Position numbers and translations under genes: made by a program. The notes below the pieces were generated by a model. The model was not told where the DNA came from, ran no database searches, and was given only the letters and a program-made list of their open reading frames with translations. From positions 1 to 25,834 of the forward strand of contig JAFDHB010000031.1 of NCBI GenBank assembly GCA_019308985.1: a DNA stretch of 25,834 nucleotides, given 5' to 3'. Positions 24 to 15,124 of this stretch are shown in pieces; position 1 is the first letter of the stretch; each line of letters begins with the position of its first letter. This DNA is from Deltaproteobacteria bacterium. GTDB lineage: Bacteria > Desulfobacterota > DSM-4660 > Desulfatiglandales > HGW-15.

Positions 24-179
24 AAATCCGAAATCCGAATCTCGAAATTCGAAACAAAATCAAATATCAAATGTCCTAATGACAAAAACAAAATCATAAT
101 CGCTACGCCTATTGCTTGGATCATTTGAATTTTGGTCATTAAGTGTTGTTTCGGATTTCGGATTTCGTGCTTCGGATTT
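24..179. repeat. Long imperfect palindromic intergenic repeat
   Basis: The outer arms (24-55 and 148-179) are inverted copies matching at about 25 of 32 positions. Both are built from short units of the type TTCGGATTTCGGATTT. Inner parts also pair: a stretch near 68-85 resembles the complement of 125-145, leaving a centre near 100-118. The whole could fold into one long hairpin. No reading frame is seen. Repeats of this look are common between genes in environmental deltaproteobacterial and planctomycete genomes (recalled, not searched). It lies downstream of the cyclase/PilZ gene and could act as a transcription end or be a non-autonomous mobile repeat. Confidence 0.7.
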
Positions 180-265: not shown

Positions 266-586
266 TCAGCGGGGAAAAGACCCGTCCAAGCGATTGAGCA
301 AGCTCTGGATAATTTCCCTGTCCCCCGGATCGAGGGATGTAAAGCCGATGCGGATTTCCCTGTACTCTCCCTTATCCTTGACCTCAAGCACCTTGCCGCA
401 AATCTCACCGGTGCGCACGTTGAAGATGTCTATGTCCAATCTGAAAAGGATGTTCGAGTAGGGCACCACCTCCGCATCTGTCCTGGCGAGCATCCCACCC
501 ATTCCCAGGTTGATAATAGATCCCTTGCAGTTGCCCGGACAGGCGGCCTTGCCCTCCAGGGTCTTGAATTGGAAGGGGAGATCCAC
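266..586 (-). CDS. PilZ domain segment, in frame after TAG
   Basis: PilZ domains bind cyclic di-GMP through an RxxxR motif followed about 20-30 residues later by [D/N]xSxxG. This 106-residue frame has the second motif as NLGMGG (residues 26-31; Ser replaced by Gly) and a beta-rich pattern, but no RxxxR. Its GTG first codon directly follows the TAG of the upstream cyclase in the same frame, and the last cyclase residues supply R-C-S-R-R, an RxxxR at the expected distance of 28 residues. It is therefore best read as the rest of one cyclase-PilZ protein interrupted by TAG. No good ribosome site precedes the GTG, so separate translation would need coupling or reinitiation. A Cys pair (CPGNC, residues 16-20) is present. 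The PilZ call is fairly sure; c-di-GMP binding is uncertain. Confidence 0.7.
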   Translation of the reverse strand: MDLPFQFKTLEGKAACPGNCKGSIINLGMGGMLARTDAEVVPYSNILFRLDIDIFNVRTGEICGKVLEVKDKGEYREIRIGFTSLDPGDREIIQSLLNRLDGSFPR

Positions 587-1594
587 CTACACCCGCCTGC
601 TGCATCTGGCTTCCCGGTCAGGTACCACCAAGCCATAGGGCTCACCAATTGATAACAGCTCATAGAGAGCAACCGGTTCCTTTCGCCCCTTGAAAGAGAC
701 ACGGACAGGATCTGAGACTATGACCAGATCCTTCACCCTGGAATAGGTGCTCTCACTCATGAGAATTTGGCCCATCAGGGTATGGGCCTCTATGCGGGAG
801 GTGAGGTTAACCTCGTCACCAATGACCGTGTACTCGCAATGGAGGTCAGAGCCTATTTTACCGGCAATCACGTCGCCGGTGTTTAGACCGATGCCCATAT
901 AGAGCTCAGGCAGTCCCCGCTTATGGTTTTCTTCGTTGAAGCGATCCATCCTGATCTGCATTTTCGCTGCGCAGCAGACCGCATGTTCAACATCGTTTAT
1001 CCGACTGGTTGGGACACCAAAGAGCGCCATGATGGAATCACCCATGAACTTGTCTACTATTCCCCCGTGGCGGTAGATAATCTCGCACATGTGTGTGAAA
1101 TAGCGGTTCAGCATCTCTACCACTTGCCCCGCACTGAGGGCTTCTGCTACGGAAGTGAATCCCCTCAGATCAGAGAACAGAACAGTGACCTCCCTGATCT
1201 GCCCGGTGAGGAGTGAAGCACGGGATGGAGCTTCCATTTTTCCAAGTCCTTCTTGTAATTCCCTCCTCAGTGACAACCCATCAATAACCCGACCCGTTGC
1301 CATGTTTCTCTGGAGAATATCCTCGACCACCGGAACGAGACGATCCATAATCCTCTCCGGGTCCTGATCCCGTTCCGGCCACAAGGATTTATTCACGGAA
1401 ACCCTGGTTAAACGCCCCTTGCGGGTTGAGACCTTCTCTGTCTTTAGGGCGTATATCCCAAGAAGGGCAATCATGACACTGAATATAAGACTCCCTGCTG
1501 ATAATAAACCCGGCATGGCGACGTTGATAGAGACGACCAGGGTCATCAGCATGGTAATCACAACTATCAGGAGGAGTTTCACTTCTTGCTTCAT
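587..1594 (-). CDS. Membrane-anchored class III nucleotide cyclase
   Basis: Two N-terminal membrane helices (about residues 5-27 and 30-50) lead through a linker to a class III adenylate/guanylate cyclase domain (about 135-315). The metal-binding aspartates lie in FSDLRGF (D142) and KFMGDSIMALFG (D186), and the NLTSRIE stretch (263-269) carries the transition-state Arg and Asn. It should make cAMP (less likely cGMP) from the triphosphate at the cytoplasmic face of the membrane. After the domain the chain runs into R-C-S-R-R, which looks like the start of a PilZ domain, and is cut by TAG at 589-587; the same frame continues as PilZ. The ATG start is supported by the membrane segment directly after it; the ribosome site is weak. 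Confidence 0.9.
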   Translation of the reverse strand: MKQEVKLLLIVVITMLMTLVVSINVAMPGLLSAGSLIFSVMIALLGIYALKTEKVSTRKGRLTRVSVNKSLWPERDQDPERIMDRLVPVVEDILQRNMATGRVIDGLSLRRELQEGLGKMEAPSRASLLTGQIREVTVLFSDLRGFTSVAEALSAGQVVEMLNRYFTHMCEIIYRHGGIVDKFMGDSIMALFGVPTSRINDVEHAVCCAAKMQIRMDRFNEENHKRGLPELYMGIGLNTGDVIAGKIGSDLHCEYTVIGDEVNLTSRIEAHTLMGQILMSESTYSRVKDLVIVSDPVRVSFKGRKEPVALYELLSIGEPYGLVVPDREARCSRRV

Positions 1595-1946: not shown

Positions 1947-2561
1947 TTGGAAAAGGAACAAGAGCGCAGGAGTCGTTCCAGCGTCGTAAACGAGTCGTTG
2001 CAGTACAGGTTTCTCGCGATGGTACTCGTTTACGCCTTCATTCTGGTGGCCTTTTTTGGGGTCACCCTCTTTCTGCCTGAAATCAGGCAAATGCACGATG
2101 AGAGCCTGAGCATGGCGGTGCGCGGTGCAGCCGCGCAGAGGATACTTTCCAAGCACCTATGGGTATGGCCGACGGTCATATTTCTAGTCTGCATGATAGG
2201 CGTGCATTCATTCATGGCCTTTCATCGTATTGCCGGGCCCCTCTATCGTTTCGTGAAGAGTTTCGAAAGGATCAGGGATGGTTACTTGGATTTCCGGGTG
2301 AAAATCAGGGAAAAGGACTATCTCCACAGGGAGGAAAAATCCTTCAACGAGATGGTGGAATCCCTTTCAACCAGGATCCTGGCTTGCCAAAGGTTCAGTG
2401 ACGCAGCCTTGAGATCCTTCCAGAAGATGGAAAAATCCGTTGAAAACAGGAGTAGCGTGGATGATCCTGAGCCGAACCTGGAGGGTCACATGAGGATCCT
2501 CAGGCAAGACTTGCTGGAACTGTACGATGCCTTGAAGTTCTTCAGAGCGGGAAACGGGTAA
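1947..2561 (+). CDS. Two-helix membrane protein with HAMP domain
   Basis: The 204-residue protein has a basic N-terminus, two membrane helices (about 22-43 and 72-91) around a short outside loop, then a HAMP-like linker (about 93-145) and a helical C-terminal tail. No kinase, methyl-accepting or cyclase output domain follows. HAMP linkers pass conformational signals across the membrane, so this could be a bare relay or scaffold for a partner. The start is TTG; it is chosen because the basic stretch before helix 1 (RRSRSSVVNESLQYRFL) lies just after it, and the ribosome site is weak. The next gene, a GspG-like pseudopilin, starts 10 bases after its stop, suggesting co-expression. No specific function is assigned. 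Confidence 0.75.
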   Translation: MEKEQERRSRSSVVNESLQYRFLAMVLVYAFILVAFFGVTLFLPEIRQMHDESLSMAVRGAAAQRILSKHLWVWPTVIFLVCMIGVHSFMAFHRIAGPLYRFVKSFERIRDGYLDFRVKIREKDYLHREEKSFNEMVESLSTRILACQRFSDAALRSFQKMEKSVENRSSVDDPEPNLEGHMRILRQDLLELYDALKFFRAGNG

Positions 2562-2571
2562 ACAATAAACC

Positions 2572-3105
2572 ATGTTCGCCATTGAAATAGCGAGAAACAA
2601 CGGGTTGCTTGCCGGTAGAGGGCCGTGGCTCAGGAGCCCGGGATCCTTTGATTGGGCTCCCTATTGGTATCCCTGGGGATTCACACTCATAGAACTCATG
2701 GTCGTCATAGCCATGATCGCGACACTGGCAGGCATCGCAATACCGGTGTATTCCAACCAGATTAATAAGGCAAAGATATTCAAGGCCATATCCGACATCA
2801 AGATCCTCCAGGATGAAATAGACGCCTACAAGGAAGATAACGAGCTACCCGCAAGTCTCGACGATATAGGAAGAGGGAGCCTCATGGACCCCTGGGGTAA
2901 CCCCTATCAATATATCAACCATGATCTCGTAAAACCCGGCAAGCGGCGCAAGTTCCACAAGACCGTACCATTAAACTATGATTATGACCTGTTCAGCATG
3001 GGCAAGGACGGTAAGTATAAAGCTCCCTTGACAGCAAAACACAGCAGGGACGACATAGTCAGGGCGGATGATGGAGGTTACATCGGGCTCGCCTCGGAAT
3101 ATTGA
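2572..3105 (+). CDS. GspG-like type II/IV pseudopilin
   Basis: The prepilin peptidase site G36/F37 is followed by TLIELMVVIAMIATLAG, with the conserved Glu at +5 of the mature chain. The C-terminal half carries the GspG signature DPWGNPYQY and an acidic region (YDLFSMGKDGK..., then RDDIVRADDG) like the calcium-binding loop of major type II pseudopilins. Members form pseudopilus or pilus fibres in the periplasm after cleavage by PilD/GspO, encoded here at 20699-21484. The 36-residue leader is long for the family; an internal TTG at 2605 would give a 25-residue leader, and neither start has a clear ribosome site. No other secretion-system gene is adjacent, so its machine is elsewhere or it has a special role with its HAMP and HD-GYP neighbours. 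Confidence 0.85.
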   Translation: MFAIEIARNNGLLAGRGPWLRSPGSFDWAPYWYPWGFTLIELMVVIAMIATLAGIAIPVYSNQINKAKIFKAISDIKILQDEIDAYKEDNELPASLDDIGRGSLMDPWGNPYQYINHDLVKPGKRRKFHKTVPLNYDYDLFSMGKDGKYKAPLTAKHSRDDIVRADDGGYIGLASEY

Positions 3106-3124
3106 GGAATAGGGGAAAAACCTT

Positions 3125-5317
3125 GTGAGAATAGACTTAACCGTCATAAAGGGCAAGGTGGCACGCCGGATATTCTTTCAGTTTATCCTTTGCTCCCTTT
3201 TGCCCATAATCGCTCTCGCGGTCCTGTCTTTTACGCAAGTCGAAGGGGAACTGGAGGACCAGGGAAGGAGGCGCCTGCACGAAGCCAGCCGATCCTTGGG
3301 TAGGGCCGTCTACGACCGGTTGACCCTCATTGAAAACGACCTCAATCTCCTTTCACTCTTACTGGTTTCAAGTGGAAGTACCCACCAAGATATCTTGATC
3401 CAAAAACCCCTAGACCCAATGAAAAAGAGAATTAAGGCCTTAGCCGTGCAATACGGAAAGGGCGACGTGAAAGCTCTCTTGGGAGACATCGCGGAATTCC
3501 CGGCCTTATCCCAGGAGGAAATGGATCATCTTGGGCTGGGGAGGGCCCTCGTCTTGGTACGACCCGACGGGGAAAATAGTGCACGATTGTTCATGCTGAA
3601 GCTGCTTGATCCTAGTGACCCGGGGCAAGGACTCCTCTGTAGCGAGATAAACACCCTGTACATGTGGGGATTGAGCGAAGGCAACACCCTCCCTGCTTCA
3701 ACCGAACTGGCAATCCTTGACAGTACCGCAAAGGTGATCTTTTCCACACACCCTGCTCCTCCCCGTTTTTATGCTCACCCGGAGTTTCATCGGGCCCGAT
3801 CGAGCATTTCACGATTCGAATGGGAGCATGAAGGACAAAGATACCAGTCCGGGTATTGGTCGGTCTTCATGAGGTACCACTGGTTCTACCCCAAGCTCAC
3901 CGTCGTCCTCAGTGCCCCCAAGGACTATATCTTCGCCCCGATTGCATATTTCAAGAAGGTATTTCCCCTTGTCGTCCTCCTGTCCTTTTGGGTGGTCCTT
4001 CTCTTGAGCGCACTCCAGATAAGCAAGACCACCAGACCCCTCCTTGAACTGAAAGAGGCATCAAACCGAATAGCAAACAGGGATTTTGAAAGCAGGGTAA
4101 ACGTCCACAGCGGCGATGAATTTGAAGAGCTCGGCGATGTATTCAATAATATGGCAAAGAGGCTGGGCAAACAATTTCATACCCTGACCGCGATGGCCGA
4201 TATAGACAGGGCCGTGCTCTCTTCCTTGAAGACCGATGAAATTATCGAAGCCCTGGTTTCAAGGATGAAAACCTTTTTCAAGTATGACCTCGTCAGCGTC
4301 TGCCTCCTGGACCCTGAAGGCAAGAGTCCCACTTGGAGTTACAAGAGTGTCGGGGCCTCCCCCCTTGCCACCAGTGACCACATCTTCAATGTCCCTGGAG
4401 AAAAACTAGAGAAACTGATAGGCAGTGAAACCGTCCTGACTTTTTCCAGGAATGAAGGCTTTCCGGGCTATCTGGAGCCCCTGCTGGAAAGAGGCATTGA
4501 ATCGATCCTCTTGCTTCCCCTTTTCACGAAAAAGGCCCTTGCAGGGATCATAGTCCTTGGCTCAAAACTGCCGAACGCCTTTGATGAGGAAGAGATTACC
4601 TATGCAAGACAAATCGCAGACCAGGTGGCCATCGCCCTTTCCAATGCAACCCTGTTAAAGGAACTGGATGAGCTCAACTGGGGCACTCTCTTTGCCCTGG
4701 CCCGGGCCGTGGACGCCAAGTCATCGTGGACAGCCAACCATTCTGAAAGGGTGACTGAAATAGCGTTGAAGATCGCCAAGGCCATGGGCTTGAGCAAGGA
4801 AGAACTGGATACCCTGGCCCGGGGCGGGCTCCTCCACGATATCGGCAAGCTGGCCATACCGGTCCATATCCTCGACAAGAATGGCCCCCTGAGCAAAGAG
4901 GAGCTTGAAATAGTACGCTCTCACCCTGTGGCGGGCGCAAGGATCCTTGAACCCATTGGGGCCTATAGAGCCATTGTACCCCTGGTCCTGCAACACCATG
5001 AACGCTTTGACGGGACCGGGTACCCGAACGGGATAGCGGGCAACAGGATCTCCCTGGGTGCCCGTATCCTGGCGGTGGCCGATGTGTATGACGCCCTTTG
5101 TTCAGAGAGACCATACCGGGACGGAAAAAGTTCACAGGATGTCATTGAGATCCTGAAAAGGGAGGCAGGCAGGCACTTTGATCCCCAGGTGGTGAGCGTA
5201 CTCCTAAAGATCATAGATAAGGAGGGACCTCTTATCTTTTCAGAGGCCAATAACCTGTCAAACCTTTCGGATTCCATGATCGGGGCCGGGAGGTTGATGA
5301 CTGCATCGAGGGGGTGA
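3125..5317 (+). CDS. HAMP-GAF-HD-GYP cyclic-di-GMP phosphodiesterase
   Basis: A membrane sensor of 730 residues. In order: membrane helix (about 15-37), extracytoplasmic sensor region (about 40-270, probably Cache-like), second helix (about 278-298), HAMP (about 299-350), GAF (about 365-510) and HD-GYP (about 520-700). The catalytic motifs are complete: HD at 571-572 in GLLHDIGK, and HHERFDGTGYP at 624-634. It should hydrolyse cyclic di-GMP at the inner face of the membrane in response to an outside ligand and to whatever the GAF domain binds. The GTG start has a good AGGGG site upstream. Its stop overlaps the GTG candidate start of the lipoprotein gene. Position after a pseudopilin suggests control of a surface structure. 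Confidence 0.92.
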   Translation: MRIDLTVIKGKVARRIFFQFILCSLLPIIALAVLSFTQVEGELEDQGRRRLHEASRSLGRAVYDRLTLIENDLNLLSLLLVSSGSTHQDILIQKPLDPMKKRIKALAVQYGKGDVKALLGDIAEFPALSQEEMDHLGLGRALVLVRPDGENSARLFMLKLLDPSDPGQGLLCSEINTLYMWGLSEGNTLPASTELAILDSTAKVIFSTHPAPPRFYAHPEFHRARSSISRFEWEHEGQRYQSGYWSVFMRYHWFYPKLTVVLSAPKDYIFAPIAYFKKVFPLVVLLSFWVVLLLSALQISKTTRPLLELKEASNRIANRDFESRVNVHSGDEFEELGDVFNNMAKRLGKQFHTLTAMADIDRAVLSSLKTDEIIEALVSRMKTFFKYDLVSVCLLDPEGKSPTWSYKSVGASPLATSDHIFNVPGEKLEKLIGSETVLTFSRNEGFPGYLEPLLERGIESILLLPLFTKKALAGIIVLGSKLPNAFDEEEITYARQIADQVAIALSNATLLKELDELNWGTLFALARAVDAKSSWTANHSERVTEIALKIAKAMGLSKEELDTLARGGLLHDIGKLAIPVHILDKNGPLSKEELEIVRSHPVAGARILEPIGAYRAIVPLVLQHHERFDGTGYPNGIAGNRISLGARILAVADVYDALCSERPYRDGKSSQDVIEILKREAGRHFDPQVVSVLLKIIDKEGPLIFSEANNLSNLSDSMIGAGRLMTASRG

Positions 5318-5739
5318 TTCCGGGTAAGATTATGCCTCGCGGATTCAAGAGAAACATGATACTGATCCCGCTCCTGTGGATGGCGATCTTCTTGTTCGGC
5401 TGCGATTCCAACAGGCTCGAGAAGGTGCCTGATGAGATGAAGGGTGAATGGATGACCTCTGCCCCCAAGTACAAGGGATTTTCCTTTGAGATCTCTGATC
5501 AGTCTCTCGTCTTCATAGACCAGAATGCGGAGCAGCCTGTCGACGTCTACCCTATTTCAAAAATCGAGAAAGACGAAGAGGAGAAAAACCTGTACACCAT
5601 ATACTACAAGGTAGATGACTCGGCAGATTACAAATTTTCATTCTACTTTGATCCGGCTGATGGAGGCTCAATCATCCTCAAAAACCAGAGAAAATATCTC
5701 TGGAAGAAGGTCAATAAGAAAAGGCCAACAAGTAGATAG
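5314..5739 (+). CDS. Small predicted lipoprotein
   Basis: I do not recognise a family. The protein of about 141 residues has a basic N-terminus, a hydrophobic segment ending in a lipobox (FLFGC, Cys30 by the GTG start) and a charged, beta-rich remainder. It should be lipidated at that Cys and anchored in the inner or outer membrane. The GTG at 5314 overlaps the HD-GYP stop by four bases (GTGA), suggesting translational coupling; an ATG at 5332 is an alternative and would put the lipidated Cys at 24. The compact fold, with a Lys-Tyr-Leu-Trp-Lys-Lys end, could bind a periplasmic ligand for the HD-GYP sensor, but this is only a guess from position. Confidence 0.75.
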   Translation: MIPGKIMPRGFKRNMILIPLLWMAIFLFGCDSNRLEKVPDEMKGEWMTSAPKYKGFSFEISDQSLVFIDQNAEQPVDVYPISKIEKDEEEKNLYTIYYKVDDSADYKFSFYFDPADGGSIILKNQRKYLWKKVNKKRPTSR

Positions 5740-12452: not shown

Positions 12453-14189
12453 ATGGAAAAGATTCTTCGTATCGATGTGGGAGCTGAAGGGGGCCCGAGG
12501 GCCAGCGAGTCCCCCGTGGGTGAGTATGCCGGGCTAGGGGGCAGGGCCCTGACTTCGGCAATTGTTTCAAGGGAAGTCCCTCCACTCTGCCATCCCCTTG
12601 GGGCAGGAAACAAGCTCGTTATAGCCCCTGGCCTGTTGAGCGGGACCACGGCTGCGATATCGGGCAGGATATCAGTGGGAGCAAAGAGCCCCCTGACAGG
12701 CGGAATCAAGGAGTCTAACGCGGGAGGCCAACCATCTCAGGTCCTTGCCAGGCTAGGATATGCCGCTATCGTTCTGGAGGGCAAGCCGAGGGATGATACC
12801 CTCTACAAGGTCTTCATCAACAAGGATGGTGTCAGGATTACCGCCGATAACAGTCTCAAGATGTTGGGCAATTATGATCTTGTCGAAAGGATCAGGGGTG
12901 AGTACGGTGACAAGGCGGCATGCATCTCCATCGGCCCTGCTGGGGAGATGAAAATGAGTGCCGCCTCCATTGCCTTTACGGACATGGAACAAAGGCCCAC
13001 ACGTCACGCCGGCCGCGGTGGGGTAGGTGCTGTCATGGGTAGCAAGAACATAAAGGCGATCATCCTGGACGAAAGTGGTACGAAGATGCGTAGCCCGAAA
13101 GATCCACAAGCCTTCAAAGAGGCGAGCAAGAGATGGGTGGACGGCCTCCGGAAGCATCCTGTCACAGGTGAAGGCCTCCCAGCCTACGGAACCAACGTGC
13201 TGACCAATGTGATCAACGAGGCCGGCGCCTATCCGACCCACAACTTCCTCCTGGGCCGCTTTGAGGAATGTTCCGCCATAAGCGGCGAGACTCAGGCGGA
13301 AACAGAGAAGGCCAGGGGAGGGCTGGCTACCCACGGTTGTCACCGGGGATGTGTTATCAAGTGTTCGGGCATATACACGGACAAGGATGGAAACTACCTG
13401 ACAAAGCAACCGGAATACGAAACGGTCTGGGCCCATGGGGGAAACTGCGGCATAAGCGACTTGGATGTCATTGCCATGATTGATCGCTTGGATGATGACT
13501 ATGGCCTGGACACCATTGAAATGGGGGCAACTATTGCCGTGGCAATGGAGGCTGGATTGGCCAAATTCGGGGATGGCCAGGCTGCCATAGAACTTGTCAA
13601 GGAAGTGGGCAAGGGGACTCATTTGGGACGTATACTCGGCAATGGTGCCGCAGTTACGGGTCGTGTCTTTGGCGTAGAAAGGGTTCCAGTTGTCAAGGGT
13701 CAAGCTATGCCGGCCTATGATCCCAGAGCAATACAAGGGATTGGAGTCACCTATGCAACCTCTCCCATGGGAGCGGATCACACCGCAGGCTATGCCGTGG
13801 CTACCAACATATTGGGAATAGGAGGCAAGGTGGATCCTTTAAAGCCCGAGGGTCAGGTGGATCTGTCCAGGAATCTTCAAATCGCCACCGCAGCCCTGGA
13901 TTCAACGGGTATGTGTGTCTTTGTGGCCTTCGCCATGATGGATCAGCCCGATACCTTTCAGGCCCTCATAGACATGATCAACAGCTTCCATGGTTTGAGC
14001 CTGACTGAAAACGACATTAATGAGCTGGGCAAATCCGTACTGAAGAATGAACGGGAATTCAATAGGAGGGCAGGCTTCACCACAGAGCACGATCGCCTGC
14101 CCGAATTCTTCAAAAATCAGCCTCTTCCCCCACATAATGTGGTATTCAACGTAAAGGATGAGGATCTTGACCGGGTATTCAACTGGTAG
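12453..14189 (+). CDS. Aldehyde:ferredoxin oxidoreductase family protein (W-type)
   Basis: The family couples oxidation of aldehydes (or reduction of acids) to ferredoxin using a tungsten bis-pyranopterin and a [4Fe-4S] cluster. The 578-residue protein has the GLGGRAL N-terminal motif, RGGVGAVMGSKNIKAI (pterin binding) and four candidate cluster cysteines: C296, C300 and C304 in GCHRGCVIKCSG, and C488 in DSTGMC. Spacing is C-x3-C-x3-C, not the C-x2-C-x3-C of the archaeal aldehyde enzyme, so the exact substrate is open. The ATG at 12453 is preceded by AGGAGG with 7 bases between; the frame is open 54 codons upstream, but that part looks non-coding. The neighbouring unknown gene and MoaD gene suggest a dedicated cofactor or partner set. 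Confidence 0.93.
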   Translation: MEKILRIDVGAEGGPRASESPVGEYAGLGGRALTSAIVSREVPPLCHPLGAGNKLVIAPGLLSGTTAAISGRISVGAKSPLTGGIKESNAGGQPSQVLARLGYAAIVLEGKPRDDTLYKVFINKDGVRITADNSLKMLGNYDLVERIRGEYGDKAACISIGPAGEMKMSAASIAFTDMEQRPTRHAGRGGVGAVMGSKNIKAIILDESGTKMRSPKDPQAFKEASKRWVDGLRKHPVTGEGLPAYGTNVLTNVINEAGAYPTHNFLLGRFEECSAISGETQAETEKARGGLATHGCHRGCVIKCSGIYTDKDGNYLTKQPEYETVWAHGGNCGISDLDVIAMIDRLDDDYGLDTIEMGATIAVAMEAGLAKFGDGQAAIELVKEVGKGTHLGRILGNGAAVTGRVFGVERVPVVKGQAMPAYDPRAIQGIGVTYATSPMGADHTAGYAVATNILGIGGKVDPLKPEGQVDLSRNLQIATAALDSTGMCVFVAFAMMDQPDTFQALIDMINSFHGLSLTENDINELGKSVLKNEREFNRRAGFTTEHDRLPEFFKNQPLPPHNVVFNVKDEDLDRVFNW

Positions 14190-14251
14190 CAATGATCCCA
14201 CGGCATCGGGCTTGGGGGTCTCTCAAGCTCCCCAAGCCCACCCAGGTTAGT

Positions 14252-14881
14252 ATGAAAAAACCCTCAGAGACATTCACATCCGGGGACACGCAGACGCCAC
14301 GGAGCGGGCTTTCGCTGGAGCTTGGCCATGGGGCTTTGCCCAGGTTCCTGCGCCTGTTTCAAGCCGGCATAGGGATCAAAGCCCGAATCGGCTGCACGGT
14401 GGACTCCTTTCTTTGCGAGCAACTGGGCATCGGCCGGGAATACCTTGAAAATAGAATCACCACCGTACTCCTGGATGGGAAAGCCGTTGATGACTTCAGT
14501 GAGTCCCTGGTGGAAGACGGCTCTGTTTTGGCACTTTCTACCGCCATGCCGGGGCTTCTCGGCGCAGCCCTCAAGAAGGGCGGACGGTTGGCATCCCTTA
14601 GAAGTAATGTCTCTTACACTCCGGGAGAAAGCAACCAGAGTTTTCGGGAGGGCACAGTGGTCTTGAAGCTCTTCAACTTCCTGGCCCAGGAAATCGGGCC
14701 CGTCCTGCTAAGCAAGGGCATTCGGGTCAACACGAAGGACATTATTTCATTCCTGGCAGAATGGAGGGATGATTCCTGCAAGGGGTCTGTCAGGATCTTT
14801 CTCAACGGCGTTGAAATGCCACTGACAGGAACCCTCCTCACCGATTCAGGCATAAAGGAAGCCTTTTTGTACACGTCCTGA
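14252..14881 (+). CDS. Unknown protein with MoaD-like segment, next to oxidoreductase
   Basis: I recognise no family. The 209-residue protein (ATG at 14252; the frame is open for another 20 codons upstream, to 14192) contains a stretch near residues 48-105, G-C-T-V-D-x-F-L-C-E-Q-L-G-I ... V-L-L-D-G-K-A-V ... L-V-E-D-G-S-V-L-A-L, that reads like a MoaD/ThiS beta-grasp fold and resembles the MoaD encoded next door. It goes on with AMPGLLGAALKKGG in place of the terminal Gly-Gly, then about 100 further residues. It follows the oxidoreductase by 62 bases and ends exactly against the convergent MoaD stop. A role in the oxidoreductase cofactor or complex is inferred from position only. Confidence 0.75.
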   Translation: MKKPSETFTSGDTQTPRSGLSLELGHGALPRFLRLFQAGIGIKARIGCTVDSFLCEQLGIGREYLENRITTVLLDGKAVDDFSESLVEDGSVLALSTAMPGLLGAALKKGGRLASLRSNVSYTPGESNQSFREGTVVLKLFNFLAQEIGPVLLSKGIRVNTKDIISFLAEWRDDSCKGSVRIFLNGVEMPLTGTLLTDSGIKEAFLYTS

Positions 14882-15124
14882 TCAGCCTCCTGCAACAGGG
14901 GGAAAGACACCTATCCTATCACCCTCTTTCAGGACCTCGTCGCCCTTGGCATATGCACCATTCAAGAAAACCATCTTTACGGCCCCTTCAGGAATGTTGA
15001 GCCCGCTCAAAAGTCCCCTTACGGTGGTGCCTTCCTCCACATCAACTATGCCGGAATCCGCACCCGGCGAACCCTCCGGAGTATATTTGGCCAAGGAGGC
15101 GTAAAGATTTACTCTTACCTTCAT
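14882..15124 (-). CDS. MoaD/ThiS family sulfur carrier protein
   Basis: An 80-residue beta-grasp protein ending in VAGG, the Gly-Gly that is adenylated and thiocarboxylated to deliver sulfur for molybdopterin (MoaD) or thiazole (ThiS) synthesis. Marks are the N-terminal VRVNLYASLAKY, the TTVRGLL helix, VFLNG, LKEGDRIGVFPPVAGG. Next to a tungsten-type aldehyde oxidoreductase the pyranopterin role is more likely; such oxidoreductase-linked MoaD proteins are common. It is on the minus strand, and its TCA (reverse stop) abuts the TGA of the preceding gene with no base between, so there is no room for a terminator between the two. Confidence 0.88.
   Translation of the reverse strand: MKVRVNLYASLAKYTPEGSPGADSGIVDVEEGTTVRGLLSGLNIPEGAVKMVFLNGAYAKGDEVLKEGDRIGVFPPVAGG

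Follow-up and report, generated by a model that had tools for sequence, protein, structure and literature searches.

A class III cyclase-PilZ gene with an in-frame TAG codon between its two PilZ motifs, most likely an ordinary broken copy or a sequence error

The window, i.e. the whole stretch of 25,834 nucleotides analysed here, carries close to its first position a reading frame for a class III nucleotidyl cyclase, which is stopped by a TAG codon and continues in the same frame as the remainder of a PilZ domain (Table 1). Translation and Pfam searches confirm this arrangement, which had been proposed in the initial annotation. The cyclase domain matches Guanylate_cyc (PF00211) with 105.8 bits, and since the N-terminal ~45 residues of the frame are hydrophobic, the cyclase is probably membrane-anchored. 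In the piece behind the stop, PilZ is found by itself (24.1 bits at a cut-off of 22.5, E = 4.7e-5) over profile positions 21-101 of 102. As this match only begins at profile position 21, the start of the domain must be located upstream of the TAG. Moreover, the post-stop residues can be aligned to all 121 of 121 homologous proteins, which excludes a frame that is open by chance. The first PilZ motif, RxxxR (R330-C-S-R-R334), lies ahead of the stop, and the second (N362-L-G-M-G-G367), which has a Gly in place of the motif Ser, lies behind it. Both the position of RxxxR and the degenerate nature of the second motif had been described correctly; the distance of 28 residues beyond the stop has to be revised, as N362 is found 26 residues past the stop and 28 residues from R334. 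The 106-residue piece contains neither an RxxxR motif nor a complete PilZ domain, and its earliest start-like codon is a GTG immediately 3' of the TAG. Two pairs of inverted-repeat arms are clustered near the contig start and may be the reason for the assembly break at this point.

Table 1. Features of the window and of the contig that carries tRNA-Pyl and mttB in the bin G001.
Feature	DNA	Positions	Strand	Details
Inverted-repeat arms	window	24-39 / 150-165		16 nt, 100% complementary
Inverted-repeat arms	window	31-54 / 156-179		88% complementary
Remainder of PilZ domain	window	266..586	-	106 codons, closes with TGA; degenerate second motif NLGMGG
In-frame TAG	window	587..589	-	codon 336 of the fused frame
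Class III nucleotidyl cyclase frame	window	587..1594	-	335 aa; ATG at 1594, ends R-C-S-R-R-V then TAG; hydrophobic N-terminus residues ~1-45, cyclase domain 132-306, RxxxR (first PilZ motif) 330-334
204-aa protein, divergent neighbour	window	1947..2561	+	no Pfam match at 1e-5
Divergent neighbouring genes, 204-aa protein to small lipoprotein-like gene	window	1947-5739
Small lipoprotein-like gene	window	5314-5739
Aldehyde ferredoxin oxidoreductase gene, then two further frames	window	12453-15124
229-aa frame	window	14192-14881	+	no Pfam match
ThiS/MoaD-like gene	window	14882-15124	-
mttB with in-frame TAG	L020 (G001 contig C324)	3424-4827	-
tRNA-Pyl	L020 (G001 contig C324)	5651-5724	-

The divergent genes next to the cyclase frame code for the 204-aa protein (named methyl-accepting chemotaxis protein in some relatives), for one resembling a type II secretion G protein, for a HAMP-GAF-HD protein with an HD_5 match of 145 bits, and for a small lipoprotein-like one. 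Similar frames are found in the same order beside the cyclase-PilZ gene of the nearest orthologue in a named genome record (L001; JAFDHO010000020.1, from a Deltaproteobacteria bin), where the counterpart of the 204-aa protein gene likewise adjoins the cyclase-PilZ gene; within the available stretches of the loci L010-L013 this neighbour was not found. The HAMP-GAF-HD protein is a possible c-di-GMP-breaking enzyme of the HD-GYP type in the vicinity of a c-di-GMP-sensing cyclase. At a larger distance the window contains an aldehyde ferredoxin oxidoreductase gene which is followed by two further frames.

The L001 protein, which shares 81% identity with the window over the cyclase frame, was used as query against a clustered set of 5.8 billion proteins. 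Among 7,999 scored candidates, 1,339 relatives were obtained at E <= 1e-40, and the best 120 of these, together with L001, constitute the alignment of 121 proteins used throughout. It includes a near-identical copy of the window protein (P0001) as well as a fragment that is 100% identical to L001 (P0002). For the best 120 of the 1,339 relatives, both Pfam domains are precomputed in 105 cases and the cyclase alone in 15. The fused family is large and known mostly from metagenome data, the names given including 'PilZ domain-containing protein' (Deltaproteobacteria, Desulfobacterales) and 'adenylate cyclase'. Compared to these fused proteins (P0001-P0120), the window copy is alike in the order of its parts, in length (mostly 430-450 aa) and in its cyclase and PilZ motifs, and differs in the stop between its two PilZ motifs; the Gly that replaces Ser in its second motif is a minority form. 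Among 85 genomes of the class of L001, five contain the gene at E <= 1e-100. The closest of 21 genomes by DNA is G001, the bin of the nearest orthologue (74%), with no genome of the window's species among the 21, and a search of plasmids with the window DNA gave no close match.

All 121 aligned proteins extend to the place of residue 436 or further, and none of them has a gap where the window has the TAG: Asp stands there in 63, Glu in 41, Lys in 9, Asn in 4, Gly in 2, and Arg and Gln in 1 each. Likewise, all five genome orthologues are open at this site (Glu 2, Asp 2, Lys 1), including L001, whose cyclase-PilZ protein is encoded in a single frame with Glu. The proposal that one cyclase-PilZ protein is cut by one amber codon is thus borne out, as the protein runs through the site in all 121 homologues and in the five genome orthologues, each with a sense codon. 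We also looked in the relatives for an arrangement as two separate genes, each with its own RxxxR; it is absent from the aligned homologues and from the five genome orthologues and was rejected on the basis of the fused family rows, the alignment and the search with the 106-residue piece described below. The suggested origin of the stop by a CAG-to-TAG change is not supported: Gln occurs at the site in only one of the 121 proteins, Asp or Glu in 104, and both P0001 and L001 have Glu.

The GTG that adjoins the TAG could in principle allow a working split into two genes, with ribosomes terminating the cyclase at the TAG and starting anew at the GTG to yield a 106-aa PilZ piece. In line with this, the piece exists as its own database entry starting at exactly this GTG (P0152). 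On the other hand, it has no RxxxR and leaves the beginning of the PilZ profile uncovered, and none of the 121 aligned homologues is divided at the site. A search with the 106 residues, which reaches only proteins of similar length sharing short exact words, returned a single candidate, namely P0152 itself. We therefore consider a functional split very unlikely.

P0001, a protein of 442 aa, agrees with the window frame at 441 of its 442 positions. The sole exception is residue 336, which is Glu in P0001 and a stop in the window. The row of P0001 gives three member sequences and one contig (longest 132,363 bases). Similarly, P0121 equals the 204-aa neighbour at 204 of 204 positions and represents a cluster of two contigs, again with 132,363 bases as the longest. 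P0152 is 100% identical to the 106-aa piece and derives from one contig of 25,834 bases, which is the size of the window. Judging from these contig sizes, the TAG appears to be present in a public record, while a longer contig of nearly the same organism appears to lack it. The suspicion that the TAG is in no public record, raised by the Glu of P0001, is largely removed by the P0152 entry.

These data favor two of the options listed initially, a nonsense change and a sequence error, whereas recoding, readthrough and reinitiation are without direct support. According to the first, the TAG is a recent single-codon nonsense allele of the cyclase-PilZ gene, and we infer that it is a true strain-level allele; we hold this reading to be moderately probable. 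What counts against it is the position of the TAG, which lies within 600 bases of the contig end and near the inverted repeats. The same position speaks for a consensus or assembly error, in which case the real gene is whole and the TAG a wrong base in the contig. Further points in favor of an error are that the TAG codon is the sole difference from the otherwise identical P0001 and that all 121 aligned homologues have a residue at the site. Only indirectly against it, other long frames in the window are open when read by themselves. We regard an error as a possibility to be taken seriously, albeit a doubtful one.

With respect to the age of the stop, dN/dS between the window and L001 amounts to 0.06 before and 0.08 behind the stop, at a dS near saturation (~2). 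Polarised amino-acid changes are distributed between window and L001 as 17:16 before and 7:4 behind the stop, and a further 32 and 17 changes, respectively, are unpolarised; a very recent stop would leave such a pattern. The PilZ part was hence under constraint for most of the divergence of window and L001; because dS is near saturation, these rates say little about the most recent stretch of the lineage. Together, the constraint on the PilZ part and the near-identical P0001 suggest that the stop is young.

A further explanation to be considered is that the TAG is decoded as a residue at least partly, by pyrrolysine or another suppressor, which would still allow full-length protein to form. 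Some observations on G001 are compatible with this: the bin contains a tRNA-Pyl and an mttB gene with one in-frame TAG (774.7 bits, above cut-off), as well as a PylS-like start truncated at a contig end (36.4 bits) and a PylD-like tail at a contig end (49.5 bits), both below cut-off. The constraint on the post-stop part over most of the divergence from L001 would also fit. However, among 14 control genomes the PylS search gave matches in 13 and the PylD search in 10, so that weak matches are common, and mttB is above cut-off in only one of 61 genomes, G001 itself. The GC contents of the two pyl contigs, which are short (0.486 and 0.482), are below those of 32 chunks of four large G001 contigs (0.509-0.558) and also below the lowest other G001 contig looked at (C141, 0.499); their tetranucleotide correlations are 0.49, inside the chunk range of 0.44-0.73, and 0.32, outside of it. 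Due to the low GC content, the membership of this methylamine/pyrrolysine cassette in the bin is uncertain, and the genes are possibly mis-binned or located on a mobile cassette. Moreover, of 170 long open frames in 264 kb of G001 (the two pyl contigs included), 60 close with TAG, and a search of the window for tRNAs of all kinds came back empty. Another G001 cyclase (L005) was flagged with a TAG in its match; this TAG lies just past the cyclase domain and looks like the ordinary end of that gene. A further flagged match (L007) has a TAA.

The window gene and pyrrolysine-decoded genes of the mttB type share an in-frame TAG within a conserved protein. They differ in that the TAG of the G001 mttB lies within a known Pyl family, whereas no aligned homologue has a stop at the window site. 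Since 104 of 121 relatives carry Asp or Glu at this site and P0001 carries Glu, there is no sign in the sequences that the window TAG is meant to be read, and neither programmed readthrough nor recoding is supported. Taken together, we give partial decoding of the TAG hardly any credence. General recoding of TAG had been called unlikely from the start, as the cooC, oxidoreductase and regulator genes end in TAG; this holds, and with the small lipoprotein-like gene, four of the 20 other genes listed for the window do so. Reading on past these stops adds 1 to 31 codons according to a hand-made list in which some starts are guessed, and general recoding was discarded. It is barely conceivable that pyrrolysine decoding operates in the window population under certain conditions and that the TAG allele is tolerated through partial readthrough; if true, such a reading of the allele would tie cAMP/c-di-GMP coupling to growth on methylamines. 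Most likely, we are dealing with an ordinary broken copy, or else with an error in the sequence, and not with a new way to read the genetic code.

The cyclase itself retains the residues that an active enzyme should have. D142 and D186, which we take to be metal-binding, K182 of the presumed adenine pocket, as well as N263 and R267, presumably the transition-state Asn/Arg pair, are all present in the window. K182, D186 and R267 are invariant across the alignment of 121 proteins; D142 is found in 119 (with two gaps) and N263 in 106. ATP is the probable substrate given Lys182 and Thr256, which we assume to point to this nucleotide. Profile searches match the cyclase domain to the solved adenylate cyclases of PDB entries 6fht, 2w01, 3r5g CyaB and 1wc0 (E 1.8e-73 to 1.1e-34). 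These best-matching structures, deposited as adenylate cyclases, are presumably of bacterial proteins. While they resemble the window protein in the cyclase domain, none of the best 60 of 64 matches extends past profile position 324, leaving the PilZ part uncovered. In the latter, R330, R334, G358 and G367 are kept in all 121 aligned proteins, and the Ser of the second motif in 116; the remaining five have Gly, i.e. P0001, standing for the window, and four further rows. Because the PilZ motifs are near-invariant, c-di-GMP control of cAMP synthesis via PilZ is the likely normal function of the family. In the accessible passages of a source that counts 221 PilZ architectures in Pfam, GGDEF, EAL and Peptidase_S8 are named as catalytic partners and a cyclase partner is unmentioned (PMC7288161). 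Our literature search found no experiment on a fused cyclase-PilZ protein, although one may well exist elsewhere.

If the TAG is indeed a recent nonsense allele, the change would hit between the two PilZ motifs of a probably membrane-anchored cyclase-PilZ protein, and the cell would make a cyclase of 335 residues that keeps its catalytic residues and has no working c-di-GMP site. The 106 codons downstream, even if translated, should not bind c-di-GMP because they lack RxxxR. The truncated form would thereby retain the cyclase and lose the c-di-GMP input, and might then be either always on or always off. In a family which would normally make cAMP under c-di-GMP control through PilZ, such an allele would break the link between the two messengers. 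With its c-di-GMP motifs near-invariant among the aligned rows, the intact family is more useful than the broken copy, and an intact member would pass a c-di-GMP signal to cAMP inside one chain.
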